A DNA stretch of 35,403 bases from an uncultured Pseudomonadota bacterium (lineage in GTDB: Bacteria; Myxococcota_A; UBA796; SXON01). Each line of letters starts with the position of its first letter. Within the stretch, counting starts at the first letter, position 1. This document shows, in pieces, positions 6,882 to 34,198 of the stretch. Below the pieces are notes generated by a model, which ran no database searches, was not told the DNA's origin, and saw only the letters and a program-made list of their open reading frames with translations. The stretch spans positions 1-35,403 of the forward strand of contig CAITDR010000547.1 in assembly GCA_903891165.1 (NCBI GenBank), given 5' to 3'. The translations under genes were made by a program, and so were the position numbers.

Positions 6882-7739
6882 CTAGCGGATCCGGATGGGC
6901 AGCTCTGCCCAGCCCATGCCCCCGCGCCGGTCCCGCGCAACCACCCACAACGACTGCTCCAGATGGACGGGCAGCTCGGGTGTGGTGTACTCCACCGTCA
7001 CGACGTCCCAGAGGCTATTCGTTTGGCTGAAAGAACCTTCCTGGCTGTACCAGGAGAAGTATGGCTCCTCTTCCCGATCTTCGACCTCTCCGTCCCCGTT
7101 GCGATATTTGTAGCTTTCCACAGCATCATCGGCCAATGCGACCGTCATGCTGTAGGTCTGCTTGCGATCCAGCTCCACACGCACGCCGGAGGCTACTTCG
7201 ATTCCATCCACGGTAATTCCCACCACCGTGGGGTTGTGGTTGGGGGTGGTGGCCAGGCTCACCGGCACCCGCTTGAAGCCGATCTCTGAGCTGTCGATGT
7301 CCCCGCTCAGCAGCTCGTTTGCAGTTTCCGCACTTGCGTCCTGGAGAGCACTGCAGTCCGTGATGGCAATGGTGGTGATGATGCCGGGGACACCCTCTTC
7401 GCGGTCCGCTTCGGGGAGGCCATCCAAAAAGTCCAGGGGTACCTGCCAGACGGGTGGACTGAAGGGCTCAATCCCAAGAAAGCTGCTGGCAAGTGCGCCG
7501 GCGCCGCTATCGCCGGAGAGACCTTCCAGGCCACAGCCGAAGCCCTCCTCCGCAGAACAGCCGACCCAGGCGACACATTCCACAGGACGGTTGGGGGAGA
7601 GGACCAGCGAGCGGAAGCGCACGGTGTCGCCAGGCCGGGGCTCAGCCGGTTCGGCGGCGATGGCCAGAATACGCAGACGGTCGATCTGCCAGGACTCGGA
7701 GACTTCGATTCGGGAGCAAGCAAGTAGGAACAACAACAT
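6882..7739 (-). CDS. Lipoprotein of unknown function, last gene of the TonB operon
   Basis: 285 residues. Translation starts at ATG 7739, whose A is also the last base of the preceding receptor's TGA stop, so the two genes are translationally coupled. The N-terminus is MLLFLLACSR: a lipobox (LLAC) with Cys at position 8 and almost no n-region. The mature protein has an Ig/fibronectin-like start (IAAEPAEPRPGDTVRFRSLVLSP), a Cys cluster (VECVAWVGCSAEEGFGCGLE) and a C-terminal beta-rich half (SQTNSLWDVVTVEYTTPELP, LWVVARDRRGGMGW). I do not recognise a named family. Its position directly after a TonB-dependent receptor suggests a surface or periplasmic partner of that receptor, such as a ligand-capture lipoprotein, but this is inference. 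Confidence 0.75.
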   Translation of the reverse strand: MLLFLLACSRIEVSESWQIDRLRILAIAAEPAEPRPGDTVRFRSLVLSPNRPVECVAWVGCSAEEGFGCGLEGLSGDSGAGALASSFLGIEPFSPPVWQVPLDFLDGLPEADREEGVPGIITTIAITDCSALQDASAETANELLSGDIDSSEIGFKRVPVSLATTPNHNPTVVGITVDGIEVASGVRVELDRKQTYSMTVALADDAVESYKYRNGDGEVEDREEEPYFSWYSQEGSFSQTNSLWDVVTVEYTTPELPVHLEQSLWVVARDRRGGMGWAELPIRIR

Positions 7740-10405: not shown

Positions 10406-11158
10406 TTACTGAGTGAGGATCACCTTGCAGCTCTCCGGCACCGCCTGAACGGGGACGGGGACGCCATCCTGCTCGCCCGGCTTCCAGCGGGAGCCCTTCC
10501 AGGCGGTGATGCAGGCTTCATCAGTGCCATAACCCAGCCCCCGTACTACCTTCACGCTGGTCACGCGGCCTTTTTCGTCCAGGTCCAGGCGGACAGTGAT
10601 GGTGCCTTCGATACTGGCCGCACGGGCTTCGTCAGGCACCTCCATCGGCGGCGCGCTGATCAGTTTTGGCAGCTTTCCAACGGCGGTATATGCGCGAGCT
10701 ACCAATGGACCCGTCGCATCTGCCAGCTCCATTTTGTCCTTGGAAGCCGGAACACCCAGGCTGTTTCCGGCATTCACCGTCAGTCCGGTGGTACCGCCGG
10801 GTGCGAAGGAGCTGGCCGATAGCCCCTGTACCCGGCGCACCGTTTTTGGCGGCGTGTCAGGAGGGGGAGGAGGCTGGTTTGGCAGAGGCTTTTCGGCGAT
10901 GTCTTCGAACTTCACCTGCTTGGGCTTCGGCTTGGGAGGCTCCGGCTTGGGAGGCTCCACCTTGGGTGGCTCCGGGGGAGGTGGCGGCTGGGTTTTTTGT
11001 ACCACCACTTCCACCCATTGTTCGGTCTTTTTCCGCACCAAGGGCTGGCTGGCCAGTCCCAGAAGCACCAGCGCCAGCAGTGCCAACGCCCCCGCACCTG
11101 AGCCCCAGCGCAGGTAGCGCTGTGCGGCCGGTTCCGGCGTAAAAGGCGAGAGACTCAA
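10406..11158 (-). CDS. tonB: TonB energy-transducing protein
   Basis: 250 residues. A single transmembrane segment near the N-terminus (about residues 20-37) is followed by a Pro/Lys/Glu-rich periplasm-spanning region (QPPPPPEPPKVEPPKPEPPK) and a C-terminal TonB domain at about residues 165-250 (RAASIEGTITVRLDLDEKGR, VKVVRGLGYGTDEACITAWK). TonB couples the inner-membrane proton-motive force harvested by ExbB/ExbD to outer-membrane receptors. ATG 11158 overlaps the exbD stop by four bases, so the genes are coupled. The dedicated receptor lies 45 bases downstream. TonB box-binding specificity cannot be read. Confidence 0.93.
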   Translation of the reverse strand: MSLSPFTPEPAAQRYLRWGSGAGALALLALVLLGLASQPLVRKKTEQWVEVVVQKTQPPPPPEPPKVEPPKPEPPKPKPKQVKFEDIAEKPLPNQPPPPPDTPPKTVRRVQGLSASSFAPGGTTGLTVNAGNSLGVPASKDKMELADATGPLVARAYTAVGKLPKLISAPPMEVPDEARAASIEGTITVRLDLDEKGRVTSVKVVRGLGYGTDEACITAWKGSRWKPGEQDGVPVPVQAVPESCKVILTQ

Positions 11159-11577
11159 GGAGTGGCCGTCGGCAGAGGGTCAATGTTGATCGCGAATTTC
11201 ACCACCCCCTCCTGCTTGACCATGTCCATGATGTGGGTCACGTCGCCATGGCGGGCGTCTTTGTCACCTGCAATCAGGCAGACCACATCCTTGTTCGCGG
11301 CTTTGGCCGCACGCACCGCCTCTCGAAGGGCGGGTTCGGTGATGGCGTCCCCGTTCAGGGCGAGGTCCCCGTTCGCGCCGACGGTGATTCCCAGCGAGGA
11401 ATTCTCGGTAGGCTCGCCGGTGGCGGCATCAGGAAGGTTTACCTTGATCGCTGGTTTTACGATGTAGGTCGCCGTCACCATGAAGATGATGAGTACCACC
11501 AGGATGATGTCCACCAAGGGCACGATGTTGATATCCGTGACCGGCTCCTCACCCTGGCCTCCCAGCTTCCCGGCCAT
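11155..11577 (-). CDS. exbD: ExbD-family biopolymer transport protein
   Basis: 140 residues with the family layout: a short cytoplasmic N-terminus, one transmembrane helix and a periplasmic domain. The proton-channel aspartate is visible as Asp23 in the motif DINIVPLVDIILVVLIIFMV. The periplasmic half has the usual sheet plus the pattern PALREAVRAAKAANKDVVCL. It starts one base after exbB stops and overlaps tonB by four bases. With ExbB it forms the proton-driven stator that energises TonB. Confidence 0.95.
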   Translation of the reverse strand: MAGKLGGQGEEPVTDINIVPLVDIILVVLIIFMVTATYIVKPAIKVNLPDAATGEPTENSSLGITVGANGDLALNGDAITEPALREAVRAAKAANKDVVCLIAGDKDARHGDVTHIMDMVKQEGVVKFAINIDPLPTATP

Positions 11578-11578
11578 T

Positions 11579-12199
11579 CTAAGCGCCCCCCCGAACGCGG
11601 CTGATGATCAGCGATCCCAGACTTTCCACACGCCCCAACTTGGTCTTCACTTGACGCGTCAAGACGTTGTAGAGCACCACCGCCGGGATCGCGACCAACA
11701 GGCCCACCGCCGTCGCCACCAACGCCTCGGAGATGCCGCCCATGACGGCGTTGGCACTCTCGTCGGTCTTCTGGGCCAGATCGTTGAAGGCCTTGATGAT
11801 GCCGAGCACGGTCCCGAACAAGCCCACGAAAGGAGCGTTCGAAGCCACGGTTCCGATGAAGAGCAGCCCCGACTCCAGCTTCAAGCGCTCAAAGGAGAGG
11901 GTACCGGTAATGGCATCCTCCATCGCATCCGCAGCATTCGCCTCCAGCCCCGCCCTCAAGACCCGAGCTTCTACGCCCTTCATCGAGCTGAGAGCGCCCT
12001 GAAGGTCGGCGCGGCTCCCCCCGGTCAGAAAGCGATGCAGCGCCGCCTGCAATGCGGCCTCGGGGCTGCTCTGCTGGAGGAAATAGACCTGCTTCACTAC
12101 GGCAATCAGGACGGTCAAAGCACCCATCCCGAGGATCAGCCATAGCACCCACTCGGCCCCAAAATATAGGGCAAGCTCCAGAACTTTATCTTCAAGCAT
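11579..12199 (-). CDS. exbB: ExbB/TolQ/MotA-family proton channel protein
   Basis: 206 residues, first gene of the TonB operon. GGAGG sits four bases upstream of ATG 12199. A first transmembrane helix (about residues 15-37) is followed by a cytoplasmic helical region and the paired helices typical of ExbB (FIGTVASNAPFVGLFGTVLG and AVMGGISEALVATAVGLLVA, then IPAVVLYNVL). The conserved Thr/Gly/Pro residues in these motifs are present. It partners the adjacent ExbD. At 206 residues it is a compact family member. Confidence 0.94.
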   Translation of the reverse strand: MLEDKVLELALYFGAEWVLWLILGMGALTVLIAVVKQVYFLQQSSPEAALQAALHRFLTGGSRADLQGALSSMKGVEARVLRAGLEANAADAMEDAITGTLSFERLKLESGLLFIGTVASNAPFVGLFGTVLGIIKAFNDLAQKTDESANAVMGGISEALVATAVGLLVAIPAVVLYNVLTRQVKTKLGRVESLGSLIISRVRGGA

Positions 12200-17845: not shown

Positions 17846-19027
17846 TCAGACCCGCTCGAAGACCGCCGCGGCGCCCATGCCGCCGCCGATGCACATGCTG
17901 ACCACCCCGTAGCGGCCATTGCGACGCGCAAGCTCGCTCAGCAGCGTGGCAGTGAGCTTTGCGCCGGTACATCCAAGGGGATGGCCCAGTGCAATGGCGC
18001 CGCCGTTCACATTCAGGCGGCTGCGATCGATGCCCAGGGTGTCCACACAATAGACAGCCTGCGCCGCAAAAGCCTCGTTGATCTCGAAGAGATCCACGTC
18101 GCCAATGCTGATGCCTGCGTGCGCAAGCGCCTTGGGAATGGCCGCCACCGGCCCGATACCCATCACCTCGGGAGGAACCCCCGCCACCTGATAGGACCGG
18201 AGAACGCCGAGGATTGGCAGGCCGTACTTCTCGGCCGCTTCGCGCGAGGCGATCACCACGGCTGCCGCGCCATCGCTGGTCTGCGAGGAATTCCCAGCGG
18301 TTACACTGCCACCCTGCTTGAAGGCGGGGCGCAGCTTGCCAAGGGCCTCCAGCGTAGTGTCGGCGCGGGGGCCTTCATCCACGGCGAAGGTGATGTCCTT
18401 CCAGACACCATCTACAGAAACCCGCGTAGAAACCGGCACAATCTCGTCGGCAAAGCGGCCCGAGGAGATAGCTGCCACCGCCTTCTGGTGAGAGGCGAAG
18501 GCCAGCGCATCCTGAGCAGCGCGGGTGACGCCGAAGCGATCCGCGACGATCTCGGCGGTGATTCCCATGGGGGTGTAGGCTTCGGGACGGGTGGCCATCA
18601 GACCGGGGTGCGGCGCCGGCTTCTGGCCGCCCATCGCCACCTGGCTCATGCTCTCCACACCACCGGCCAGGACGATCTCCTGCCAGCCCGCGTGGATGGC
18701 CGAGGCACCCTGCGCCAGGGCCTGGAGGCCCGAGGAGCAGAAGCGGTTGATGGTGATCGCGGGCACAGAGTCGGGGATCCCCGCCAGGAAAGAGCCGATA
18801 CGGGCGACGTTCATCCCCTGCTCGGCCTCGGGCATGGCGGTTCCTACCACCACGTCGTCCAGAAGTGCAGGATCCAGGCCCGGAAGACGGGCGAGTGCCC
18901 CCTTCAGGATCTGACCCAGCAGCTCATCGGGACGGGTGTCCCTCAGGCTGCCGCGCCCACTCTTTCCAACTGCGGAACGGACCGCAGCGCATACGACAAC
19001 TTCACGCTTGGAATTTCCGTGGAGCAT
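17846..19027 (-). CDS. fadA: Acetyl-CoA acyltransferase (thiolase)
   Basis: 393 residues, full family length. It removes acetyl-CoA from 3-ketoacyl-CoA in the last step of beta-oxidation. The nucleophilic Cys97 lies in [15 protein letters not shown]. The other catalytic elements are visible: [10 protein letters not shown], the His motif [17 protein letters not shown] and the C-terminal Cys motif [17 protein letters not shown]. The start at ATG 19027 gives the usual opening ([20 protein letters not shown]). It begins five bases after the stop of the dehydrogenase/hydratase gene, so the two subunits of the fatty-acid oxidation complex are co-translated. It is followed directly by a strong terminator. 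Degradative FadA/FadI type is favoured over the biosynthetic type because of this partner. Confidence 0.95.
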
Positions 19028-19032
19028 GGCGA

Positions 19033-21390
19033 TCAGTTCCTCAGAGGCTTGCCTTTCTCCAGCATGTGCTGGATACGGGCCTTGGTCTTTTCAGTGCCGA
19101 GCAGGGACAGGAAAGCCTCCCGCTCGAGATCCAGGATGTCCTGCTCGGTGCGGACGGCGCCAGAGCTGCACTCGCCACCGGTGAGGATCCAGGCCAGCTT
19201 TTTGCCGACCACCGCGTCGTGTTCAGAGATGAAGCCGCCCATCTGCATCTGGTACAGGTAGAGCTCAATCGCTGCACGTCCCTGCGCTCCAGGCAGCTTG
19301 AAGCTGCGCTTCCGCGGGGCGCGGTAGCCACCTTCGGCCAGACCCAGGGCCAACATCTTCGCGTCGTAGATGAGGCGATCCGGATCGACGGTGATGCGGT
19401 CTGAGGCGCGAAGGAACGCCTGATCGCGGGCTTCTTCGCCGGAAGTTGCCACTTTGGCGGTGCCCAGGTACTCAAAGACCTTCTGCACGAAGGGGTTGGG
19501 ATCGTAGGCCACACCGGGAGGAATATCCCCCAGGAAGCGGGCCAACATTTCCTTACAACCGCCACCCGCAGGGATCAGGCCCACGCCCACTTCCACCAGC
19601 CCGGCGTACAGCTCGCCTGCGCCCTGCGTTGCCGCAGAGTGCATGGTGACTTCGACGCCGCCACCCAGGGTAAGTCCCCAGGGAGCGGTCACCACCGGAC
19701 GGCTGTTGTATTTGGCCCGCATCAGCAGATCCTGCATCCGCTTGACGACGGCCTCCAGCTGGCCCCACTCCTCTTGCATCGCGCCCATCAGGATCATCAT
19801 CAGGTTGGCGCCTGCGCAGAAGGCAGGTCCACCCTGGTTTCCGACCACCAGCGCGTCGTAGCGGCCGGAGTCCAGTTGATCCAGGCCCTTCTCGTACATG
19901 TCGAAGACCAGATCGTCCAGCGCGTTCATCTTGGAGTGGAACTCCAGACAGAGCACGCCATCGCCCAGATCCAGCAGAGAAGCGGAGGGATTGCCATCCA
20001 CCTCGCCCCCGTGGGCACGCACATCCGCCAGCATCAGGTGCTCGGCGGAGTCGGGCACGGGCTTGACCAGTCCACCCCAGTAGGTGGAGTCGCCTTCTAC
20101 ACGTGCGTAGAAAGAAGTCCTACCGGAAGCCAGCATCTCCTCGATCCAGGCGGGGATCGTGCGGCCTTCGGCCTTCATCCGCGCCACCGTCTCGGGAACA
20201 CCGAGTGCGTCCCAGCTCTCAAAAGGCCCCTGCTCCCAGGCAAATCCCCAGCGCATACCCCGGTCGATGTTCACCACATCGTCGGCAATCTCGCCCACCA
20301 GGGACGCTGCGTAGAGCAGTGTATCGGCGGTTACATTCCAGGCGAAATGGGCGGCCGCGTCATCGCCATTGACGATGATTTTGACTGCTTCGCCGGTGTT
20401 TTCCGCGCTGCGCGCCGCACCCAGAGATGCGTAGCGCACCTTGGCCTGCGAACGGTACTCCATGGTCTCCAGGTCCAGGACCAGGATCTCCGTAGAACCG
20501 TCGGCCTTCTTCCCTTTCTTATAAAAACCCGCGCCGGACTTCTCGCCCAGGCTGCCGCGCTCGATCAGCGCCTTCAGGTAGGAAGGAAGCTGGAAAAGGT
20601 CGCGCTGAGGATCGGTGGGGCAGTTGTCATAGAGACCCTGGATGACGTGTGCCAGGGTGTCCAGACCCACAAGGTCCGCAGTGCGGAACACGGCGGAGCC
20701 CGGGCGGCCCATGGGCTTGCCCCAGATACCGTCCACCTGCTCCACAGTGAAGCCGCCCGCCTGCATATGCTTCAGGACGGAGAGGATCCCGTAGGTGCCG
20801 ATGCGGTTGGCGATAAAGGCAGGAGTATCCTTGGCATGGACGATGCCCTTGCCCAGAATCGCCTCGCCGAACTTCGCCGCCTCCTCGTAGACCTCCTTCT
20901 TGGTGGTCACACCGGGCACCAGCTCCAACAGGCGCATGTAGCGCACGGGGTTGAAGAAGTGGGTGATGAGGAAGTGGGCGTTGAAGTCCTCGGAACGGCC
21001 TGCCGAGAGCACCTTCAGTGGGATGCCGGAAGTGTTGGAAGCCACGATACTTCCTGGCTTCCGGTTCTTCTCCACCCAGTCATAGACCCGGTTCTTGATG
21101 GTCAGCACTTCGGCGACCGCCTCGATGATCAGGTCTGCCTCTTTCAGGCGGTCGGCGTCGGCCTCATACTCGCAGGGAGTGATGAGGGCGGCGTCCGCGG
21201 CCCGATAGAGGGGGGCAGGCTTGAGCTTCGCGAGGTTCGCGATGCCGGCCTTGGCCACGGTCCGAGGGTCACCACCACCCTTGGGAGGAATGTCGAAGAG
21301 AAGGCTGGGTACACCGGCGTTGGCGAGATGTGCCGCAATTCCCTGGCCCATCACACCTGCACCGAGCACAGCCACCTTGGAGATGCCCAT
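19033..21390 (-). CDS. fadN: 3-hydroxyacyl-CoA dehydrogenase / enoyl-CoA hydratase fusion, FadN-type
   Basis: 785 residues. The dehydrogenase comes first: a Rossmann start with GAGVMG (residues 10-15), SNTSGIPLKVL and THFFNPVRYMRLLELVPG with the catalytic His region, then DTPAFIANRIG. The crotonase domain follows at about residues 480-650, with FCAGANLMM for the oxyanion hole and two conserved Glu-containing motifs (GGGVEVTMHS and AGLVEVGVGLIPAGGG). This dehydrogenase-then-hydratase order is that of Bacillus FadN, opposite to E. coli FadB. It carries out the hydration and oxidation steps before the adjacent thiolase. GGAG lies six bases upstream of ATG 21390. A FadR-like palindrome (21401-21418) sits directly before the ribosome-binding site and over the predicted transcription start, so fatty-acid-responsive repression is likely. 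Confidence 0.93.
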   Translation of the reverse strand: MGISKVAVLGAGVMGQGIAAHLANAGVPSLLFDIPPKGGGDPRTVAKAGIANLAKLKPAPLYRAADAALITPCEYEADADRLKEADLIIEAVAEVLTIKNRVYDWVEKNRKPGSIVASNTSGIPLKVLSAGRSEDFNAHFLITHFFNPVRYMRLLELVPGVTTKKEVYEEAAKFGEAILGKGIVHAKDTPAFIANRIGTYGILSVLKHMQAGGFTVEQVDGIWGKPMGRPGSAVFRTADLVGLDTLAHVIQGLYDNCPTDPQRDLFQLPSYLKALIERGSLGEKSGAGFYKKGKKADGSTEILVLDLETMEYRSQAKVRYASLGAARSAENTGEAVKIIVNGDDAAAHFAWNVTADTLLYAASLVGEIADDVVNIDRGMRWGFAWEQGPFESWDALGVPETVARMKAEGRTIPAWIEEMLASGRTSFYARVEGDSTYWGGLVKPVPDSAEHLMLADVRAHGGEVDGNPSASLLDLGDGVLCLEFHSKMNALDDLVFDMYEKGLDQLDSGRYDALVVGNQGGPAFCAGANLMMILMGAMQEEWGQLEAVVKRMQDLLMRAKYNSRPVVTAPWGLTLGGGVEVTMHSAATQGAGELYAGLVEVGVGLIPAGGGCKEMLARFLGDIPPGVAYDPNPFVQKVFEYLGTAKVATSGEEARDQAFLRASDRITVDPDRLIYDAKMLALGLAEGGYRAPRKRSFKLPGAQGRAAIELYLYQMQMGGFISEHDAVVGKKLAWILTGGECSSGAVRTEQDILDLEREAFLSLLGTEKTKARIQHMLEKGKPLRN

Positions 21391-22860: not shown

Positions 22861-23678
22861 TGGCCACCGACGAAGTCCACCGCGGCGGGGTGGCCAGAGA
22901 GCTGCACCAACTGCCGAATGGCTGCCCGTCCGTCCGTGCCGTAGCTCAGGGTATCGGCGTTGGCATACATCTGAAGGTAGCGATCCACCTGCTCAAAGGT
23001 GGACAATGCCCCCCCGCGCGCCAGAAGCCAACGGATGGCCTCGTCACGATGGGCCAGCCCATGGGCGATACTGCGGTGAACAATACGATCTACCTGGGCA
23101 ATGGTCGATGCGCCCAGAGAGCGCCGCACCACATTGCCGCCCAGAGGCAACGGCAGGCCGGTGTGTGCGTTCCACCACTGGCCCAGGTCCAAGAGCAGCT
23201 CAAAGCCCTCCTGCGCCCAGGTCAGGCGCCCCTCGTGGATCACGACGGCGGCATCCACTTCCCCACTTCGGAGCGCCTCAAACACCCGTGCATGCGGCTG
23301 GATGGGGATCACCACCGGTGTAAAAGTACACACCTGCTTCATGACGAGGTGTGCGGTGGTGGTCAGGCCAGGCACACCGATGCGAAGGCCCTCCAGCTTC
23401 TCCAGCTTTTTCGCCGCGACCAGGGCGGGTCCATAGCCCCGGCCCACTGAGCCACCATGATCGAAGAGCTGATAGTGGGCGGCAACCCTTGGATACCAGG
23501 CGATGGAAATGGCATTAACGTCGGCTCCGTCGCCTGAAGCCATGCGGTTCAAGGCATCGGTATCCGCTGTTTCTACGCGGAAATCCAAGCCCTCGGTGTC
23601 CACCAGTCCTTCGGTGATGCCGCGAAACATGAAGAGATCGTCGGCATCGGGGCTGATGGCACAGCGGATTACGGTCAT
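22854..23678 (-). CDS. mqnD: 1,4-dihydroxy-6-naphthoate synthase (menaquinone, futalosine pathway)
   Basis: 274 residues, normal length for the family. MqnD turns cyclic de-hypoxanthine futalosine into 1,4-dihydroxy-6-naphthoate. Family motifs: the opening ISPDADDLFMFRGITEG, GRGYGPALVAAKK, the binding segment RIGVPGLTTTAHLV, and the diagnostic stretch IHEGRLTWAQEGF followed by DLGQWWNAHTGLPLPLGG and RRSLGA. The periplasmic-binding-protein-like fold lacks a signal peptide, as expected for a cytosolic enzyme. ATG 23678 overlaps the stop of the PP2C gene by four bases, so the two are translated together. No other menaquinone gene is in the window. MqnA is a relative, but the HEGR-to-PLPLGG block favours MqnD. 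Confidence 0.88.
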   Translation of the reverse strand: MTVIRCAISPDADDLFMFRGITEGLVDTEGLDFRVETADTDALNRMASGDGADVNAISIAWYPRVAAHYQLFDHGGSVGRGYGPALVAAKKLEKLEGLRIGVPGLTTTAHLVMKQVCTFTPVVIPIQPHARVFEALRSGEVDAAVVIHEGRLTWAQEGFELLLDLGQWWNAHTGLPLPLGGNVVRRSLGASTIAQVDRIVHRSIAHGLAHRDEAIRWLLARGGALSTFEQVDRYLQMYANADTLSYGTDGRAAIRQLVQLSGHPAAVDFVGGHD

Positions 23679-24886
23679 GGCAGCGCGTTGGTGGTGGACA
23701 CCCGCGCGTTAGTCTGGCGGAGGCGTTTGCCCAGCACCTTCAGGAGCTTCCAAAGCAGGGAGTTACCCAAGACCGGCTCCCGTTGGCAGAACTCCTGCAG
23801 ATCCTCGGCGGTGATGCTGATCGCGCCGCCGAAGGTGACAGCCACCACCGAAGCTGAGCGCGGGAGCTGGTCGGCCAGGGCCAGCTCGCCGAAGTGTTCG
23901 CCAGGTCCGAGGCGGGCCAATTCGACGCCGCTGGCGGTCACCATGACCTCGCCGTCCAGGATCACAAACATCGCGTCGCCGGGAGTGCCTTCGGCGACGA
24001 GGTATTCCCCAGGAGCAAAGTAGTGTTCGCGCAGGATCCGCGATACCTGGAGACGGTTGCCGTAGGGCATGTCCTCGAAGAGGAAGAGGTGTTCCAGCAC
24101 GCGGGCGCGCAATGTCGCTTCGTCCGTGGCGGTGCGACCTTCGGGATCCACCAGGACCACCGTCACATTGTCGGGGCCGCCGGCTTCCAGCGCAGCGTCG
24201 ATCAAGGCACCGGCCGCCGTCTCCGGATCGCCGGTCAAGGTCAGGGCCTGGACCCGCTCCGGTCGGACCACGTCGGAGAGGCCATCCGAGCAGAGAACCA
24301 GGCGATCTCCCGGCATCAAATCCACAGAAGCCAGGGAGGGCTGCACCGTGGGGTAGAGACCGATGGCGCGGGTGATCACATGCCGATGGCGTGATGTTTT
24401 GGCTTCTGCAGCGGTCATTTTGCCCGCGCGGATCAGCTCGTTCACCATGGAGTGATCTTCGGTGAGCTGCTTCAGCTCTTCCATCCGGGCCAGATAGGCG
24501 CGGGAGTCCCCAACGTGGGCGATAAAAGCTGTGGTTCCGGCGAGGAGAATTACCACCACCGTGGTGGTCATCCCCGACTTGCCCTCCGACTCGGCCGTCT
24601 CGTACACTTTCTTGCTGGCGAGCTGACAGGCGTCATCCATCGCCGCAAGCACCGTGTTGCGGGCTGCCGGGGTCGCATTTTCCAGGTAGATACGGGCACG
24701 TTCACGAAGTGTCGCTGAGGCGCTCCGAAAAACGTCAATGCACAGGGCACTGGCCACTTCGCCTGCGGCGCGACCGCCCACCCCATCGGCCACCACAAAG
24801 AGCCCATCTTCAGCCAGCGCGAGGAAGGCATCTTCGTTGTGGATCCGCTTCTTTCCGGGATCGGTTCGGCACGCGACTCTGAGCAT
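23675..24886 (-). CDS. PP2C-type protein phosphatase fused to a cyclic-nucleotide-binding domain
   Basis: 403 residues from ATG 24886 (GGAG six bases upstream). Residues 1-245 are a bacterial PP2C (Stp/PrpC-like) Ser/Thr phosphatase with the metal-binding aspartates in HNED19AF, VVAD34GVGGR, the GDSRAY loop (126-131), SD201GLSD and GGPD239N. Residues about 280-380 form a cyclic-nucleotide-binding domain (APGEYLVAEG, MFVILDGEVMV), with the phosphate-binding cassette FGELALADQLPRSASV (332-347) keeping the Glu and Arg that grip the cyclic phosphate. A short basic C-terminus follows. This suggests a cytosolic phosphatase controlled by cAMP or a similar nucleotide, opposing Ser/Thr kinases, which are abundant in Myxococcota. 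It overlaps mqnD by four bases. Confidence 0.93.
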   Translation of the reverse strand: MLRVACRTDPGKKRIHNEDAFLALAEDGLFVVADGVGGRAAGEVASALCIDVFRSASATLRERARIYLENATPAARNTVLAAMDDACQLASKKVYETAESEGKSGMTTTVVVILLAGTTAFIAHVGDSRAYLARMEELKQLTEDHSMVNELIRAGKMTAAEAKTSRHRHVITRAIGLYPTVQPSLASVDLMPGDRLVLCSDGLSDVVRPERVQALTLTGDPETAAGALIDAALEAGGPDNVTVVLVDPEGRTATDEATLRARVLEHLFLFEDMPYGNRLQVSRILREHYFAPGEYLVAEGTPGDAMFVILDGEVMVTASGVELARLGPGEHFGELALADQLPRSASVVAVTFGGAISITAEDLQEFCQREPVLGNSLLWKLLKVLGKRLRQTNARVSTTNALP

Positions 24887-24968: not shown

Positions 24969-24988
24969 TGTTCAGTCTTGACTGAACA
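24969..24988. promoter_or_regulatory. Operator palindrome in front of the GbsR-family regulator
   Basis: TGTTCAGTCTTGACTGAACA: perfect 9-base arms around TT. Its centre contains TTGACT (24978-24983), usable as a -35 for the rightward operon, with a weak TAGGCG 17 bases on. Bound protein would block that promoter, which suits autorepression by the regulator starting at 25029. It also lies about 50 bases upstream of the leftward PP2C -10 element. Confidence 0.7.
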
Positions 24989-25028: not shown

Positions 25029-25541
25029 GTGCGCGAGTTGACCGCCGAACAACGTTTTGTGGAAGATTTCGGGTTGTTCCTTGAGCAGGTGGGTTTTCCG
25101 AGGATCGCCGGACGGATCTTGGGTCTACTCCTGGTCAACGGGGTGCCGATGCATCTGGAGCAGATCTCGGCCGTGTTGGAGGTCAGCCGGGCATCGGTGA
25201 GCACGAATACGCGCCTGCTGATTGGGGTGATGTTGATCGAACAGCGCACCCAACCGGGGGATCGGCGTACCTGGTTTGTGGTTCGTCCCGATGCCTTTCG
25301 GCGACGTTTTGGCTTCATCATCACCCAATTTGCTTCGATGAGCCAGCTGCTTGATCAGGGGCTGGCTGCGGTGCCACCGGAACGGGAGCCGGCTCGCAAC
25401 CTGCTGGAAGGTGCCGTGGAATTCCACCGCTTTATGGTCCAGGAGATGATCGGCATTTCCCAGCGTTGGGATGCGTTGCATGCGGATCTTCCCGACGAGC
25501 GATGGCGGGAGATCCCTCCCGATCCGGAGGAGAGCCGATGA
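25029..25541 (+). CDS. GbsR/MarR-family transcriptional regulator
   Basis: 170 residues from GTG 25029, with a purine-rich GGGAGAGAAGGG upstream; starting here gives the family's normal N-terminus. The pattern RFVEDFGLFLEQVGFPRIAG, LLLVNGVPMHLEQISAVLEV and SRASVSTNTRLLIGVMLIEQ is the GbsR-type winged helix-turn-helix (about residues 10-90), followed by a helical dimerisation/ligand domain. It lies directly behind a 20-base perfect palindrome. Its stop overlaps the ATG of the next gene (ATGA), so it heads the transport operon and probably controls it. The effector is unknown; GbsR itself senses choline-type compounds, which need not apply here. Confidence 0.9.
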   Translation: MRELTAEQRFVEDFGLFLEQVGFPRIAGRILGLLLVNGVPMHLEQISAVLEVSRASVSTNTRLLIGVMLIEQRTQPGDRRTWFVVRPDAFRRRFGFIITQFASMSQLLDQGLAAVPPEREPARNLLEGAVEFHRFMVQEMIGISQRWDALHADLPDERWREIPPDPEESR

Positions 25542-26779
25542 GCCCAGATGTAGAGCTTGCGGGCTACGCGGAGCTGCGAGGCTCCGTATATATAGGGTCC
25601 GAAGGCTTCCCACTCACGATGGTGGAGCGGGTCCGACCGACCCTGGATGCACGCCCGGCGGAACGGCTGGCAGTGCATGTGGCGGTGGAGGGAGCCCTGG
25701 CGCAGGGGCGGGACAACAGCGCGGTGGCGGCCGACCTGATCGCCAATAGCCCCATCCAGGATGTGCTGGATCAAGGCGGCTGTGTCTACGATCCGCCGCC
25801 CAAATATGCAACGTCGGACAGCTATCTTTCGGTGGAGCGCCTGCACCTTGATTTTCAGCTTCCGGCGGTGGATATCTCCATCGGCCGGCAGGCGGTTACC
25901 TGGGGCTCATCGCTGGTCACCCACCCCACCGACCCCTTCCCGGAGGTGGTGGCCACCGAACCGTGGCGGGAGCGGCGGGGGGTCAACGCGATCAAGGCGG
26001 AGATTCCTATCAAGGCCCACTCCATCACCGCCCTGGTGGCTTTGGATGATGATCTGTCCGAGTTCTATGTGGAGAAGCCGAAGGGGGAGAACATCCCGGT
26101 CACCGGCGCTGTCCGCGGGACCGTGCGCGCACTCGCCACCGACTGGTCGGCCGTCGCCTGGGGGCGGCCGGATGGGCGCTATTTTGCCGGGGTGGACCTG
26201 CGGGGTACCCTGGGGGTGGGCTGGTGGGTGGAGGGCGGCTGGCACGGCGGCCGCGATGAGACCCATGACGAGGCCGCTCCGGTCGAAGTGGTGGCGGGTA
26301 TCGACTACTCCTTCCCCGTCCTCAACATGCTCTATTTTGCGGCGGAATATCGCTACGATGGCACCGGAGAAGACCCCGATCACTACTCCTGGGCCTCGCG
26401 CAGCCTCGCGGGCGAAGTTCCCTACAGCGGCTGCTCCTTTTCGCTGACACCGGATGGAGAGGATCTTCAATCCCGCAGTAGCCTGGGCCGCCACTATGTC
26501 CATGCCACGGCGCGGCTGGGCTTCACTGAAGAATTTGCACTCTCGGGAGTTACGATTGTAAACCTGCAGGATGCAACAGGTTTTGCTTCGGTGGATGCGT
26601 CGCTTCTGGTGGGTAGCCGCTGGACGCTCCATGCCGGAGCCCAAATTCCGTACGGGAAGGAGGGGGAATACCGGCCCCCCGACTCGGTCACCACCCTGCG
26701 GGTTGGCACCAATACTGCTGACCTTTCCCCGCTTCTTTTTGATGCAAACATGCTCGCCTGGGCGCGCTATAGCTTTTGA
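25538..26779 (+). CDS. Outer-membrane-barrel-like protein lacking a recognisable signal peptide
   Basis: 413 residues from ATG 25538, set by a strong GGAGGAG five bases upstream and the ATGA overlap with the regulator. The sequence reads as beta strands throughout: VELAGYAELRGSVYIGSEG, LHLDFQLPAVDISIGRQAV, then WGSSLVTHPTDPFPEVVAT, GWWVEGGWHGGRDE and MLYFAAEYRYDGTG. It ends in an aromatic strand with terminal Phe (LAWARYSF), a BAM signal. The RQAVTWGSS...PTDPF motif recalls DUF1302-type/porin-like proteins. Oddly, the first strand begins almost at the start codon and no signal peptide is visible in any upstream frame. It could be a non-classical substrate, have an error upstream, or be mis-started. 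The neighbours (ABC exporter and LolA-like protein) suggest it is the outer-membrane part. Confidence 0.85.
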   Translation: MSPDVELAGYAELRGSVYIGSEGFPLTMVERVRPTLDARPAERLAVHVAVEGALAQGRDNSAVAADLIANSPIQDVLDQGGCVYDPPPKYATSDSYLSVERLHLDFQLPAVDISIGRQAVTWGSSLVTHPTDPFPEVVATEPWRERRGVNAIKAEIPIKAHSITALVALDDDLSEFYVEKPKGENIPVTGAVRGTVRALATDWSAVAWGRPDGRYFAGVDLRGTLGVGWWVEGGWHGGRDETHDEAAPVEVVAGIDYSFPVLNMLYFAAEYRYDGTGEDPDHYSWASRSLAGEVPYSGCSFSLTPDGEDLQSRSSLGRHYVHATARLGFTEEFALSGVTIVNLQDATGFASVDASLLVGSRWTLHAGAQIPYGKEGEYRPPDSVTTLRVGTNTADLSPLLFDANMLAWARYSF

Positions 26780-26788
26780 GGTACGCCG

Positions 26789-27493
26789 ATGTCTGAGGGA
26801 ACGCCGAAGCTCTGCGAGGTGCAGAATGCCAGCAAGGTCTACCGGATGGGAGACATCACCGTACATGCGCTCTCCGGGGTGTCGGTATCGGTGGGATCCG
26901 GCGAATTTACGGTCTTCTCTGGGCCGTCGGGTTCGGGCAAGTCCACCCTGCTCAACCTGATCGGCTGCCTGGATCGCCCTTCCTCTGGCAAAGTGCTCTT
27001 GGAAGGCCAGGATGTGGCATCCCTGGCCGACGCTGCGCTGGGTCAGGTCCGTGCGCGACGGATCGGCTTCATCTTTCAAAGCTTCAACCTGATACCGGTG
27101 CTTACGGCCTACGAAAATGTCGAGCTGGCGCTGCGTCTGGCGGGGCAGCTTCAAGATGCCGAGTCGCGGGTGCGACAAGCGCTCTCCGATGTGGGGCTTG
27201 CGGACTACCTCGGGCGTCGGCCGAGCCAGCTCTCGGGTGGGCAGCAGCAGCGGGTGGCCATCGCACGGGCCCTGGTCAAGCGGCCGGCCCTGGTCATCGC
27301 CGATGAGCCGACAGCCAACCTGGATAGTAAGAATGGGGCGGCCATCCTGGATTTGATGAAGGAGATGAACCGGCGAGATGGGGTGACCTTCCTCTTCTCC
27401 ACCCACGATCCAATGGTGATGTCGCATGCGCGGCGGATCGTGAGCCTCCGGGACGGCGAGGTGGTGGGCGACACGGTGGGAGAGGGGAAGTAG
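26789..27493 (+). CDS. ABC transporter ATPase, LolD/MacB-type
   Basis: 234 residues with all ATPase motifs: Walker A GPSGSGKST (45-53), Q-loop in FIFQSFNLIPVLTAYENV, signature LSGGQ (148-152), Walker B ALVIADEP (167-174) and the switch His in FSTHDPMV. The QSFNLIPVLTAYENVELAL segment is typical of the LolD/MacB/FtsE group, which works with FtsX-like permeases by mechanotransmission rather than classical import. Two such permeases follow directly, the first starting two bases after this stop. It energises whatever this system moves. Confidence 0.95.
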   Translation: MSEGTPKLCEVQNASKVYRMGDITVHALSGVSVSVGSGEFTVFSGPSGSGKSTLLNLIGCLDRPSSGKVLLEGQDVASLADAALGQVRARRIGFIFQSFNLIPVLTAYENVELALRLAGQLQDAESRVRQALSDVGLADYLGRRPSQLSGGQQQRVAIARALVKRPALVIADEPTANLDSKNGAAILDLMKEMNRRDGVTFLFSTHDPMVMSHARRIVSLRDGEVVGDTVGEGK

Positions 27494-27494
27494 A

Positions 27495-28694
27495 ATGTTC
27501 TTTCTTCTTCGGCTCTCCTTCCGAAATGTGATGCGCAACCCGGGACGCACCATGATCACCTCCGTCGCTGTGGTGGCAGGGGTGGCGCTGATGATCCTGG
27601 GGTGGGGACTGGTCGACGGGGTGGACGAGAACGTCCTCCGTGCCTCTTCCCGCACGGTCACTGGCGATGTCATTCTTCGGCCTGTGGACTTTCCCACCGA
27701 TGGATCCTCTTATCCCCTGGACAAGGCCACCGCTCCGCCGCCCATTTCTGCGACCCTCGCGGAGGTGGCGCCTCGTGTGTTCTTTCAGGGGCGTCTGGTA
27801 GCGGGCGCAGATTCCACCCGGGTGACGGGGATAGCCTACGATCCCGACCTGGATCCTAAGGTTTTTCCGCGGGAATTCTGGCGGATGGAGGGCGGGTGGC
27901 CTGCGGCAGGCGCATTGGAGGCGGTGGTGGGTTCCCGGCTGGCGCGGGTTCTCGGTGTTCATACTGGGGATTCGGTGATTTTGGAGGCGCGGACCCAGGC
28001 GGGGGCCATGAATGCGCTGACCTACCGTGTTTCCGGTTTGGTGACGACCGACAACTCCTGGGTGGACGGTACGGCAGTCTGGCTGCCCATGCCCCTGGCG
28101 GAAGAACTGCTGGTACTTGGCGGACTGCGCACCCATCTGGCCCTCAAGCTGAAGCGGGGCACCGCCGAGGAGGCGCTGGCTGCGCTGAATACCCCGGGCT
28201 GGACAGCGCACACGGTGCGCGAAGAGTGTGCGGACATTCTGGAGTTAAACAATTTTCGACGGCGGGCCATTGTCTTTCTGGTTTTCGTGATTATGGCAAT
28301 CGCGGCGACCGGCATCACCAACTCGGTGCTCATGGGCGCCTTCGAGCGGGTGCGGGAGATTGGGGCTCTCCGGGCCCTGGGGATGGATCGGGTCGGCATC
28401 GCGTCTCTGTTTCTATTTGAAGGATTAATTATGGGTTTGATCGCTGCTCTTATCGGAGCAGCTCTCGGAGCGGGGCTGGTCCTTCGATGGCAGACCAACG
28501 GCTTTGTGCTCAGCGACGACATGATGGAGAACGCCGGCCAGATGGCGGTGGGCTCTGAGATCTACACCCGTTTCTCCTGGGACATGACCGTCGGCTCGGT
28601 GCTTTTCGCCCTGCTCATCGCACAATTGGCTTCTATCTATCCCATGATCTTTGCCACCCGCCTGAACCCGGCGGATGCTGTACGCGCGGAGTAG
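27495..28694 (+). CDS. FtsX/LolC-type ABC permease, first of two
   Basis: 399 residues with the MacB/LolC plan. An N-terminal transmembrane helix (about residues 19-40) follows the basic motif LSFRNVMRNPGRT. A large periplasmic domain (about 45-265) comes next, then three C-terminal helices beginning RRAIVFLVFVIMAIAATGIT. The coupling motif ERVREIGALRALGMDRVGIA is the FtsX signature that contacts the ATPase. It ends ...LNPADAVRAE, the usual family C-terminus. It shares its layout with the next permease, so the pair probably forms a heterodimer as in LolCE. Confidence 0.94.
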   Translation: MFFLLRLSFRNVMRNPGRTMITSVAVVAGVALMILGWGLVDGVDENVLRASSRTVTGDVILRPVDFPTDGSSYPLDKATAPPPISATLAEVAPRVFFQGRLVAGADSTRVTGIAYDPDLDPKVFPREFWRMEGGWPAAGALEAVVGSRLARVLGVHTGDSVILEARTQAGAMNALTYRVSGLVTTDNSWVDGTAVWLPMPLAEELLVLGGLRTHLALKLKRGTAEEALAALNTPGWTAHTVREECADILELNNFRRRAIVFLVFVIMAIAATGITNSVLMGAFERVREIGALRALGMDRVGIASLFLFEGLIMGLIAALIGAALGAGLVLRWQTNGFVLSDDMMENAGQMAVGSEIYTRFSWDMTVGSVLFALLIAQLASIYPMIFATRLNPADAVRAE

Positions 28695-28698
28695 AGCG

Positions 28699-29931
28699 AT
28701 GCCTGTACTCTTTTCGATGGCGGTACGGAATACGATGCGCTCCTGGCGCCGGTCCCTCCTCACCGCGGCCGCGATCACCATCGGCACCGCGCTGCTGAAT
28801 GTGGGCATGGCCTGGCAAGACGGAATCCTGGAGGGGGCCCTGGATTCGGCCTCCGCCATGGCGGGCCATGTGCGGGTGGTAAAACCTCGCTATGCCGACA
28901 AAGAGACGCTCTTTCCGATCTCGGAGAACCTCCCGAACACCGAGCCACTTTTGAAAGCGATTCGCACGGTAGACGGGGTTCGTGGGGTCTGGCCACGCCT
29001 CCAGCTGCCAGCCACGGTCTCGGTGGGCGGGGAGATCGGCGACGTCTTTTCGCTGCTCCAGGGGGCACCCTTAGACTACTATCGGGACATCCTCCATCTG
29101 GATCAGCACATCCTTGCAGGCCGCTTCTTGGAGAAGGACAACGAGGCCATGCTGGGTACGGCCCTCGCGGAAGAAGCCAAGCTGAAGGTAGGGGATGAGG
29201 TGGTCTTCATTGGCCAGACTCAGGACGGATCGCTCTCCCCCATCAAGGCCGAAGTGGTGGGTCTGGTGGACATGGGCAGTCGCCCCCAGAATATGCTGGC
29301 TTATCTGACGCTTGAAAAAGCGAGGTATATGGCAGATATCCCGGAAGGAAGTACGGAGATTATCATTTTCGCCGACCAGCGCGACGACGCGGCGGAGATC
29401 GCCGCCCGGCTCCGTTCTTTGCCCGAGCTGAAAGAACTGGAGGTCAAGGCATGGTCAGAGCGCAAGCCCTGGTCGGAGATGATCCGCCTTATCCGCCCGA
29501 TCACGGCAATTTTTGCCATGGTGATTGTGCTTTTGACCGGGTTGGTGGTCTTTAACACCATGCTGATGAGTGTCCTGGAGCGTACCGGCGAGATCGGCGT
29601 GCTTCGGGCCCTGGGCATGAACCGCCTCCAGACCATTCGTCTCTTTGTGACCGAGGCCATCGGAATTGCCCTGGTCGGTGGTCTGGCGGGTGCGTTGCTC
29701 GGCGGTACCGGGGCCATTCTTTTGGAGATCTACGGGCTGAACTTGGGGGAGGGTGTCAATCGCCTGCCCGCCACCATCCCCATCAATGCGACCGTCCACG
29801 GACGTTTTGATATCGCCAACCTGTTCTATGGAATGCTCCTGGCCTTCGTGATGGCTATTGTCGGCAGCCTGATTCCTGCCATCCGGGCCACCGCGGTGGA
29901 ACCGATCGAAGCTATCCGTCAACGTCGATGA
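28699..29931 (+). CDS. FtsX/LolE-type ABC permease, second of two
   Basis: 410 residues from ATG 28699, chosen because GGAG (28688-28691) sits seven bases upstream; an earlier ATG at 28675 overlaps the previous gene and adds an atypical N-terminus. The topology is as in the first permease: SMAVRNTMRSWRRSLLTAAA leads into helix 1, then a periplasmic domain (about residues 40-260) and three C-terminal helices with the coupling motif ERTGEIGVLRALGMNRLQTI. It ends VEPIEAIRQRR. The periplasmic domain differs clearly from its partner, suggesting distinct roles such as substrate entry versus chaperone docking. Confidence 0.94.
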   Translation: MPVLFSMAVRNTMRSWRRSLLTAAAITIGTALLNVGMAWQDGILEGALDSASAMAGHVRVVKPRYADKETLFPISENLPNTEPLLKAIRTVDGVRGVWPRLQLPATVSVGGEIGDVFSLLQGAPLDYYRDILHLDQHILAGRFLEKDNEAMLGTALAEEAKLKVGDEVVFIGQTQDGSLSPIKAEVVGLVDMGSRPQNMLAYLTLEKARYMADIPEGSTEIIIFADQRDDAAEIAARLRSLPELKELEVKAWSERKPWSEMIRLIRPITAIFAMVIVLLTGLVVFNTMLMSVLERTGEIGVLRALGMNRLQTIRLFVTEAIGIALVGGLAGALLGGTGAILLEIYGLNLGEGVNRLPATIPINATVHGRFDIANLFYGMLLAFVMAIVGSLIPAIRATAVEPIEAIRQRR

Positions 29932-29938
29932 GGAATAC

Positions 29939-30673
29939 ATGCGCTGGTATCTAATTTTCTCCTTTCTTCTGATGATGCCCCGGCTGGCCTTTGCCATGTC
30001 CGTGGATGAGCTCCTGGGGCTGCTCGACAAAAATCTCACCTTCGACACCCGGGAAGCCACGCTGACCATGATGGTCGTCCGTGCGGATCGTACCAAGACC
30101 TACAAGATGCACTCCTACTCCCGTGGCCAGAACGAGTCCGCCATGGAGTACCTGGAGCCCGCTCGCGACAAAGGCACCCGCATGCTGCGGATGGGCAACG
30201 ATCTCTGGATGTACATGCCCTCGGTCGAACGCACCCAGAAGATCTCCGGCCACATGCTGCGCCAGAGTATGATGGGCTCGGACATGTCCTACGAGGACAT
30301 GATGGACGCCGCCTCTTGGAAGGAGCGCTACTCCGGCACCGTGGATGGGGAAGAGGTCCTGGATGGCCGCAAATGCTGGAAGATGACCCTGATCGCCAAG
30401 ACCCCGGACGTGACCTACGCCAAGCGGATCGTCTGGGTGGACCAACAAAGCCATATCCCCCTGCGCCAAGAGCTCTACGCGGTCTCCGGAATGCTCCTGA
30501 AAGTCTGGGCGATGAGCGACGTGCGTACCATCGAAGGGCGCCAGTGGCCCAGCCGCATGGTCATCGAGGACAAGGTGCAGCAGGGATCCCGCACCGAGCT
30601 GATTTTTGATTCCGTGGATTTTTCGGTCGAGCTACAGACCGAGATTTTTTCTACACGTTGGCTGGAACGATAG
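29939..30673 (+). CDS. LolA-like periplasmic carrier (outer-membrane lipoprotein-sorting protein family)
   Basis: 244 residues from ATG 29939, with AGGA upstream. A signal peptide ends at Ala-Phe-Ala (17-19). The mature part is the half-barrel of the LolA-like family sometimes annotated as outer membrane lipoprotein-sorting protein: REATLTMMVVRADRTKTYKM, MEYLEPARDKGTRMLRMGND, LWMYMPSVERTQKISGHMLR, MMGSDMSYEDM, then WVDQQSHIPLRQELYAVSGM. This family binds lipids or lipoproteins between the membranes. It ends the operon, downstream of a LolCDE-like transporter and an outer-membrane-barrel-like protein, so a complete inner-to-outer-membrane route is encoded. Canonical LolA of the cell would be a separate gene. 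Confidence 0.9.
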   Translation: MRWYLIFSFLLMMPRLAFAMSVDELLGLLDKNLTFDTREATLTMMVVRADRTKTYKMHSYSRGQNESAMEYLEPARDKGTRMLRMGNDLWMYMPSVERTQKISGHMLRQSMMGSDMSYEDMMDAASWKERYSGTVDGEEVLDGRKCWKMTLIAKTPDVTYAKRIVWVDQQSHIPLRQELYAVSGMLLKVWAMSDVRTIEGRQWPSRMVIEDKVQQGSRTELIFDSVDFSVELQTEIFSTRWLER

Positions 30674-32958: not shown

Positions 32959-34134
32959 CTAACGGAATTCCATTGGGATACGCTGAAGAATTGTCGGTGC
33001 TCCGCCCAGGCTGGACAGAAGTCGAAGCTCCAGGACCCCCTGCCCGGCGGCCCCTTTGCTGGACAGGGTGAAGCTGTGGCTGTCCACCCGCTCCGCGCCC
33101 GGTGCCAGTCGGGTATCGCTCAAAGTCCGGTAAGGAGCGGTACTTTCCACAGTTCTTGCAAAGGAGATCGGGAAGGAGGGCGCGAGTGCCTTTCCGGCGC
33201 TGTCCAGCGGCTGCACCTCGATGGTGTAGGCTTTGTTGGGGTTCCCTGTGGGGAAAGCATGACCCGCCCCGGTATTCTGGGTGGTGACGGTGACCTGCAG
33301 CGGTTGCCCGCGCTGCGCTACGGCCGACGCTGTCCGCACCAGCACGCTGATACCCCGGGCCGCGCTGTTCTTGAAGCCGTGGGAGGGGACCGTACCATCC
33401 GATCCGGGGAGCAGAACCCCCGCAACCGGGGCCATGTGGCAGTCCACACAGCCCACCCCCGCGCCTGCCCACCGCGACGCTTTCCACTCGCCCCAGGTGT
33501 CGTAGTAGGGCTTGTCCGCGCCCGGCCAGCTCAACTGGTGACAGGTGGCGCAGAAGTCTGGGCTTCGAAGCTCTGTACTTACCCGGACCGGGTGGGGCGC
33601 CTGCGGGGCTTCCCGGCTGCCCACCACCACACCATCGCGCACATGGCAGGCAGCGCAGGTGACACCCTCGCCGCGTAAGCCAAGGTCAAAGCTGCTGTTT
33701 TCCTGCATCACCGGGCGGCTGCTGTCGCCATCCACATAGCTGACCGCCAGCTGATCGTGCTGGCTGGCCAGCGGCAGGTGGCAGCCCAGGCACAGGGTGG
33801 AGTCGCCCGCTGCGTGCAGCGCCGTTTGAAAAGTGGGGGAGGACCAGGCATTTGCGTGGCGGCTCTGGCTCCAGGTTTCGTGCGCCGCGTAGTGGCAGGC
33901 GTTGCAGCCCTGCGCCGAGAGCGAGGAAAGCCCCGGTGGCAAGCTGTCGATATGTGCGGGGACACCGTCTGGAAAAAGCGGGGGAGCAGGCGGAGGAGGG
34001 GGGGGCGGCGCCTCCGTGACCACTTCCGGTGCGGGCGGGACGACCGGCTCGGCCTCTCCCTTTTTCCCCCGCGCGAGCGCCAGTCCGGCCATCAGCGCTG
34101 CGATCCCTGCGATGGCCACCACTTTCCGGGTCAT
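32959..34134 (-). CDS. Pentaheme c-type cytochrome, c554-like
   Basis: 391 residues from ATG 34134, chosen because GGAGG precedes it and residues 1-21 then form a clean signal/anchor; an earlier start at 34188 would add a charged stretch. A Pro/Glu-rich linker (residues 27-55) follows. Five CxxCH haem sites are visible: C77-H81, C115-H119, C160-H164, C195-H199 and C229-H233, spaced as in multihaem proteins such as cytochrome c554. From about residue 255 there is an Ig-like beta domain with TGAGHAFPTGNPNKAYTIEV, a motif common in such cytochromes. It probably carries electrons in the periplasm or at the outer membrane. Neighbours are a His-rich lipoprotein and a propeller lipoprotein. No quinol-oxidising membrane partner is in view. 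Confidence 0.93.
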   Translation of the reverse strand: MTRKVVAIAGIAALMAGLALARGKKGEAEPVVPPAPEVVTEAPPPPPPPAPPLFPDGVPAHIDSLPPGLSSLSAQGCNACHYAAHETWSQSRHANAWSSPTFQTALHAAGDSTLCLGCHLPLASQHDQLAVSYVDGDSSRPVMQENSSFDLGLRGEGVTCAACHVRDGVVVGSREAPQAPHPVRVSTELRSPDFCATCHQLSWPGADKPYYDTWGEWKASRWAGAGVGCVDCHMAPVAGVLLPGSDGTVPSHGFKNSAARGISVLVRTASAVAQRGQPLQVTVTTQNTGAGHAFPTGNPNKAYTIEVQPLDSAGKALAPSFPISFARTVESTAPYRTLSDTRLAPGAERVDSHSFTLSSKGAAGQGVLELRLLSSLGGAPTILQRIPMEFR

Positions 34135-34198
34135 CCCTTCCTCCCTCTTCCCACTATCACCTTTTCTTCGCTCCCGGATGCCGACCACGGTCTTGCAC

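Follow-up and report, generated by a model that had tools for sequence, protein, structure and literature searches.

A predicted ATP-driven transport module across the envelope in Myxococcota_A and its beta-barrel without a signal peptide

What could be the task of an operon that encodes an ATPase, two permeases, a periplasmic carrier and a beta-barrel side by side, and how is it related to the lipoprotein (Lol) route that it resembles? The question is raised by contig CAITDR010000547.1 (assembly GCA_903891165.1) of an uncultured Pseudomonadota bacterium (GTDB lineage Myxococcota_A; UBA796; SXON01), of which positions 1 to 35,403 of the forward strand were analysed; this whole stretch of 35,403 nucleotides is called the window below. 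An original prediction, made from the letters of the sequence, described six tightly packed genes at 25029-30673 as a second, regulated Lol-like route in which a barrel replaces LolB. Gene positions and Pfam matches agree with the six genes, which are co-directional and joined by short overlaps or gaps of less than 10 nucleotides. Five of them form a conserved module, and we think it fairly probable that this module is a five-part ATP-driven transport system in which a ligand, hydrophobic or amphiphilic, travels from the inner membrane to the outer one.

Gene content, conservation and parts of the module

The operon and its putative operator are laid out as follows:

24969-24988, unstranded: putative operator palindrome, 40 nucleotides ahead of the gbsR start
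25029-25541, + strand: GbsR/MarR-type transcriptional regulator, 170 residues, GTG start
25538-26779, + strand: predicted 18-strand DUF1302-like outer-membrane beta-barrel, 413 residues, overlapping the regulator gene by 4 nucleotides, C-terminus WARYSF
26789-27493, + strand: type VII ATP-binding cassette (ABC) ATPase, LolD/DevA/MacB-like, 234 residues, 9-nucleotide gap after the barrel gene
27495-28694, + strand: FtsX-type permease 1, 399 residues, four transmembrane segments, 1-nucleotide gap after the ATPase gene
28675-29931, or 28699-29931 from a later ATG, + strand: FtsX-type permease 2, 418 or 410 residues, four transmembrane segments; the first start gives a 20-nucleotide overlap with the permease 1 gene, the second a 4-nucleotide gap
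29939-30673, + strand: LolA-like (LolA_like, PF17131) periplasmic carrier, 244 residues, signal peptide, 7-nucleotide gap after the permease 2 gene

The five structural genes are a conserved module, whose recurrence is far beyond chance. In 37 neighbourhoods from the same family or order, the barrel gene was nearly always followed by the ATPase gene, two FtsX genes and the LolA-like gene, and 45 of the 57 named loci from GTDB genomes held the complete five-gene set, with eight more cut by a contig end. At least 45 of 98 barrel-profile matches across the phylum lay no more than 10 kb from a PF17131 gene, in almost every case at a distance of 3.3-4.2 kb. Remote Myxococcota loci were taken from barrel and PF17131 pairs, a choice in which the ATPase and permeases played no part; all 16 proved to have these three genes as well, and the gene order was not uniform. 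The co-occurrence of barrel and LolA-like genes with the transporter, on which the original prediction had staked itself, is therefore found throughout the related genomes. Outside the phylum, the order TetR-barrel-ABC-FtsX-FtsX-LolA-like was detected in Persicobacter (Bacteroidota) and LolA-like-FtsX-FtsX-ABC-barrel in Vibrio campbellii, and annotation places DUF1302, MMPL transporter and LolA-like genes together in Haliovirga and Prevotella. Since ABC sets exist alongside the resistance-nodulation-division (RND) sets of Haliovirga and Prevotella, carrier and barrel behave as a unit that goes with either motor, and the operon is the ABC-powered counterpart of the MMPL/RND, LolA-like and DUF1302 sets.

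Within the same family there is also a second, paralogous five-part cluster, made up of ABC, large FtsX (about 700 residues), FtsX, LolA-like and barrel genes, the barrel having a signal peptide (L167, L168, L169, L170-L172); the copy in the genome of the window (L169, contig C625) is cut by the contig end. Barrel orthologues with a signal peptide and no adjoining transporter genes were noted at L049, L050, L053 and L066, and also at L091, L093, L096 and L100. Several GenBank records under the name Klebsiella pneumoniae or Bifidobacterium breve (L072, L073, L075, L083 and L122) carry the Myxococcota-type operon and are evidently mislabelled metagenome bins.

The ATPase and permeases are a type VII ABC transporter of the LolCDE/MacB/FtsEX kind. 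The ATPase matched Pfam ABC_tran (E 1.7e-34) and retains intact Walker A, signature, Walker B and H-loop motifs; it scored best against the DevA subfamily (218.5 bits, yet under the DevA cut-off), and its score against LolD (TIGR02211) was 212.4 bits, under the cut-off of 307.75. Both permeases matched Pfam FtsX (E 2.9e-16 for the first and 9.4e-18 for the second) and have the type VII layout, with about 220 periplasmic residues between the first and second of four transmembrane segments. Against the LolC/LolE model of NCBIfam (TIGR02212) they reached 87.7 and 102.6 bits, under the cut-off of 362. Their profiles match the structures of LolE and LolF (permease 1) and of LolF and LolE (permease 2) over most of their length, and MacB and YtrF are further structural relatives.

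The carrier belongs to PF17131 (E 1.7e-59) and shows a weak Pfam similarity to MucB/RseB, and the canonical LolA family PF03548 was not among its Pfam matches. Its AlphaFold2 model (pLDDT 84) is nearest to Porphyromonas gingivalis LolA3 (9tp6), NE2245 (3buu) and a DUF1329 protein (4z48), with TM-scores of 0.72-0.81, classical LolA standing well behind these three folds. Some genomes of the phylum (G131, G167, G188, G180 and G081) have 13-18 PF17131 matches each, a large expansion of the family.

The protein originally described as barrel-like is indeed modelled as a barrel by AlphaFold2, with 18 transmembrane strands (35 sequences; pLDDT 91, pTM 0.86). A Foldseek search of the PDB with this model returned the porin-type barrels MOMP, AlgE, OprD and OmpU (TM-score about 0.5), and BamA/TamA (Omp85) were not among the top folds. 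The window barrel itself has no Pfam match, and its sequence has no match in the PDB even at E 10; DUF1302 was matched by 19 of 35 barrel orthologues (best E 1.7e-6), suggesting a remote kinship to that family.

In LolCDE and MacB, the ABC part lifts an amphiphile out of the inner membrane, and by analogy the ABC part here probably does likewise. The type VII transporter would thus take a ligand, hydrophobic or amphiphilic, out of the inner membrane and pass it to the LolA-like protein, which would shield it across the periplasm; the DUF1302-like outer-membrane barrel would then accept it for insertion or release. Control of the operon would lie, in this lineage, with a GbsR-type regulator acting on one palindrome and presumably answering the ligand or a linked signal.

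The barrel without a signal peptide

A Sec-type signal peptide is absent from all 20 barrels of the same family (the window gene at 25538 and others, including L034-L044, L061-L065, L068 and L069), a point missing from the original prediction. Signal peptides were judged by hydrophobicity and not by SignalP, and every genome is a draft metagenome assembly. Other families of the order have an ordinary barrel signal peptide, e.g., MVTLLWFIGVSQAQ followed by ELSGFAELRG, whereas the same-family barrels start at the mature N-terminus (MSPDVELAGYAELRG in the window). In one genus (L033, L042, L043 and L069), a Pro/Ala/Glu-rich extension of tens of residues precedes the barrel, also without a signal peptide. 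A low signal-peptide score was obtained for one barrel from outside the family (L056), probably because its true start codon lies outside those scanned.

Several simple explanations for the absence were considered. In five genomes, in-frame stops 1-7 codons ahead of the barrel start leave no room for a missed start, and a scan of the three upstream frames and all in-frame starts revealed nothing consistent, so that a hidden signal peptide was rejected. A lineage-wide lack of signal peptides was also rejected, as they are carried by the LolA-like proteins of the same operons (17 of 17), by the paralogous barrels and by a TolC-type protein of the same genome (L146). On a maximum-likelihood tree the same-family group is a clade (support 100/100), and the loss of the signal peptide appears as one change.

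Two readings of this loss can be compared. The chance seems somewhat short of even that export of the same-family barrel has been lost in favour of a role inside the cell, or that its start has been wrongly read, as the absence in 20 of 20 barrels and the draft state of all assemblies would suggest. The upstream stops and the fruitless scan of other frames speak against a misread start. An intracellular role is at odds with what the barrels have kept, namely the WARYSF-type C-terminus (beta-signal), amphipathic strands that match those of relatives in strength, the hydrophobic belt (1.67 outside and -0.97 inside, compared with 1.59 and -0.86 in relatives) and a ratio of nonsynonymous to synonymous substitution (dN/dS) of 0.09-0.15, which indicates purifying selection. 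This ratio, together with intact reading frames, also led to rejection of the barrel as a pseudogene.

It is also at odds with the cysteines. Exactly two are present in 18 of 18 same-family barrels, and in other families the pair is either present as a whole (12 barrels) or absent as a whole (5), never single; in the topology of the predicted model both lie in extracellular loops. This paired pattern points to a disulfide, which would fit an oxidising compartment and hence argues for export of the same-family barrel. That the barrel of the whole family reaches the outer membrane without an N-terminal signal peptide, by an undescribed route and after a single ancient loss, is nevertheless a tentative and rather doubtful proposal.

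Local control and neighbouring genes

The regulator matched MarR_2 (E 2.1e-5, below the Pfam cut-off) and choline_R_CudC (NF047500; 30.4 bits against a cut-off of 218); because the latter score indicates membership of the same superfamily only, choline sensing should not be assumed. Ahead of its gene lies a perfect palindrome of 20 bp, TGTTCAGTC-TT-GACTGAACA, with the core TTCAGTCTTGACTGAA at 24971-24986. The palindrome contains a -35-like TTGACT, and TGTTCAGTCTTGACTGAACA is a candidate GbsR-type target sequence; no sigma-70 promoter was found by consensus before gbsR. The core occurs upstream of gbsR at each of the 10 same-family loci with the gene in that position (two of them with a variant centre), and it is absent from 10 of 10 same-family loci without an upstream gbsR and from all other families. 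The window contains it once, against an expectation of 0.02, and nine family genomes have precisely one copy each, located at the operon in every case, which led to rejection of a wider operator regulon. These patterns are strong indirect evidence for the palindrome as a putative dedicated local operator.

The regulator is an exchangeable local add-on, outside the conserved core. At seven more distant loci a TetR gene lies directly upstream, in the same orientation, in place of the GbsR-type regulator gene, as in the upstream position of the Persicobacter cluster, and in about half of the family neither type was detected upstream. The control by GbsR that had been proposed for the operon thus applies to this lineage, with its one dedicated operator, but does not extend to the module as a whole. 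Because the operator is single-copy and TetR regulators can take the place of GbsR, ligand-inducible export would fit this arrangement.

A gene divergent from the operon (23675-24886, - strand) encodes a fusion of PP2C phosphatase and cyclic-nucleotide-binding domain. It keeps this position in several genera of the same family (L034-L038), and the palindrome between this gene and gbsR could affect both. Elsewhere in the window, a TonB-dependent receptor with a fused N-terminal TonB_C domain is encoded next to TonB, ExbD and ExbB genes (7739-10360 and 10406-12199, both - strand). A multihaem-cytochrome-like protein (32959-34188, - strand) weakly matches cytochrome models of MtrC/MtrF type and of class III, and in L035 and L072 the operon is followed by a similar gene. 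Genes of fatty-acid oxidation, for thiolase and 3-hydroxyacyl-CoA dehydrogenase/enoyl-CoA hydratase (17846-21390, - strand), lie near the operon, in a position that is not conserved.

Cargo, direction and relation to known systems

The original prediction expected canonical lol genes elsewhere in the genome, and canonical-type lolA and lolCE were found there and throughout most of the family. A stronger LolCE-type match lies elsewhere in 22 of 22 family genomes (in the genome of the window on contig C293, split into two pieces and under the curated cut-off), and a PF03548 LolA is present in 21 of 22 (in this genome on contig C253). The operon is therefore a second, separate system, since such genes exist elsewhere and its own scores are far under the Lol cut-offs. 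LolB (PF03550) was detected in none of the 22 family genomes, with a positive E. coli control. As the ordinary Lol route of the family also runs without LolB, its absence is not special to the operon, and the claim that the barrel specifically replaces LolB lost its force. In outline, the idea of a second Lol-like route that is regulated and includes a barrel survives, but without support for this claim, for GbsR as a core part or for lipoproteins as cargo.

That the operon is a second Lol route carrying lipoproteins is unlikely. The resemblance of its permeases to LolE/LolF, the LolA-type fold of its carrier and the missing LolB of the family would suit such a route, and it shares with LolCDE-LolA-LolB the architecture of permeases and ATPase. 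Its proteins are, however, not equivalogs: permeases and ATPase fall well under the Lol cut-offs, the carrier belongs to PF17131 instead of PF03548, a barrel stands in the place of LolB, and a canonical-type copy is present elsewhere. The same carrier/barrel pair also adjoins RND pumps, and we know of no lipoprotein handling by such pumps. LolA3, the nearest solved relative of the carrier, binds LolB only weakly (PMC13103446), and deletion of lolA3 in Flavobacterium johnsoniae spares gliding and secretion, both of which depend on lipoproteins (PMC11885536). Both results weigh against lipoproteins as cargo, the structure compared here being that of P. gingivalis LolA3.

An inward system is quite unlikely; in it, a hydrophobic nutrient would enter through the barrel, cross the periplasm on the carrier and be loaded into the inner membrane with the help of the ABC part. 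The appeal of this reading lies in the fatty-acid oxidation genes a few kilobases off and in the requirement of the Pseudomonas putida DUF1302/DUF1329 proteins PP_0765/PP_0766 for growth on Tween 20 (PMC10866462). Relatives do not retain these fatty-acid genes next to the operon, and to our knowledge the type VII ABC transporters studied to date extract, export or transmit force, and none imports. It is very improbable that the locus is an FtsEX-like mechanotransmission or envelope-stress device, in which the barrel and the carrier-like protein serve to sense or reshape the envelope and move no ligand: FtsX-type permeases can act without transport and the LolA-like protein is weakly similar to MucB/RseB, but a pair of LolA-fold carrier and outer-membrane barrel, reused with RND pumps, points to ligand transfer.

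Outward transport of a hydrophobic or amphiphilic ligand is thus the reading that we prefer, and several points weigh against it. The gene set, its co-occurrence, the folds, the ATPase motifs, the operator and the separate canonical-type Lol genes were computed; the direction, the ligand class, the physical complex and the action of the regulator are inferred. The flanking genes give no pathway, as relatives do not keep the fatty-acid, BNR-type lipoprotein and FG-GAP genes of the window next to the operon, and neighbours of FAD amine-oxidase type occur at two loci only. Four of the 57 named loci hold the barrel without an adjoining transporter, the lack of a signal peptide is ill-suited to an outer-membrane barrel, and the Tween 20 phenotype of P. 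putida leaves room for uptake.

The original prediction knew of no characterised system of this exact make-up. Literature and plasmid searches returned no experimental study of it, although closely related arrangements have been published (PMC13078400, PMC6394551). The Borrelia BBJ23-29 cluster, for which a computational study proposed export of a non-polar ligand from the inner to the outer membrane (PMC13078400), likewise combines a type VII ABC transporter, a LolA-like 'outer membrane lipoprotein-sorting' protein and an outer-membrane barrel, without LolB. Its barrel, in contrast, is of Omp85 type and not porin/DUF1302-like, and it has one homodimeric permease and two tetratricopeptide repeat (TPR) proteins, whereas the present module has two different permeases and a local GbsR or TetR regulator, and no TPR gene was found by Pfam among the six operon genes.

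AmeABCD of Castellaniella defragrans (DUF1302, DUF1329, AmeC and an HAE3 RND protein), which confers monoterpene tolerance (PMC6394551), similarly joins an outer-membrane barrel and a LolA-superfamily periplasmic partner to an inner-membrane motor; its barrel is of DUF1302 type, to which the window barrel may be remotely akin, this motor is RND instead of ABC/FtsX, the carrier is DUF1329 instead of PF17131, and AmeC has no counterpart in the operon. The MMPL (RND) operons of Prevotella nigrescens (L205) and Haliovirga (L204) have the PF17131 carrier beside the same barrel superfamily and differ in their RND motor; TetR regulators accompany such operons in P. gingivalis and P. intermedia. MacAB-TolC and DevBCA-TolC are type VII ABC exporters as well, DevA being the best match of the operon ATPase, but they use an adaptor and TolC in place of a soluble carrier and a barrel; neither a MacA/DevB-type adaptor gene nor a TolC gene is present in the operon, and its ATPase and permeases are separate genes, not fused as in MacB.

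The module is widespread yet uncharacterised, its carrier and barrel pair being found with either an ABC or an RND motor in Myxococcota, Bacteroidota, Vibrio and Fusobacteriota. Proteins annotated as 'outer membrane lipoprotein-sorting protein' and 'DUF1302' gain a concrete shared role to test, and the findings suggest that many PF17131 proteins carry no lipoproteins. A lead to the ligand may come from the sister RND operons of P. gingivalis and P. intermedia, which are among the strongest responders to iron/hemin limitation (PMC10434189, PMC10470040). The barrel without a signal peptide is likely the aspect most surprising to specialists: loss of this peptide in a conserved barrel would mean either that the outer membrane can be reached independently of a signal or that a porin-like barrel has been reused inside the cell.

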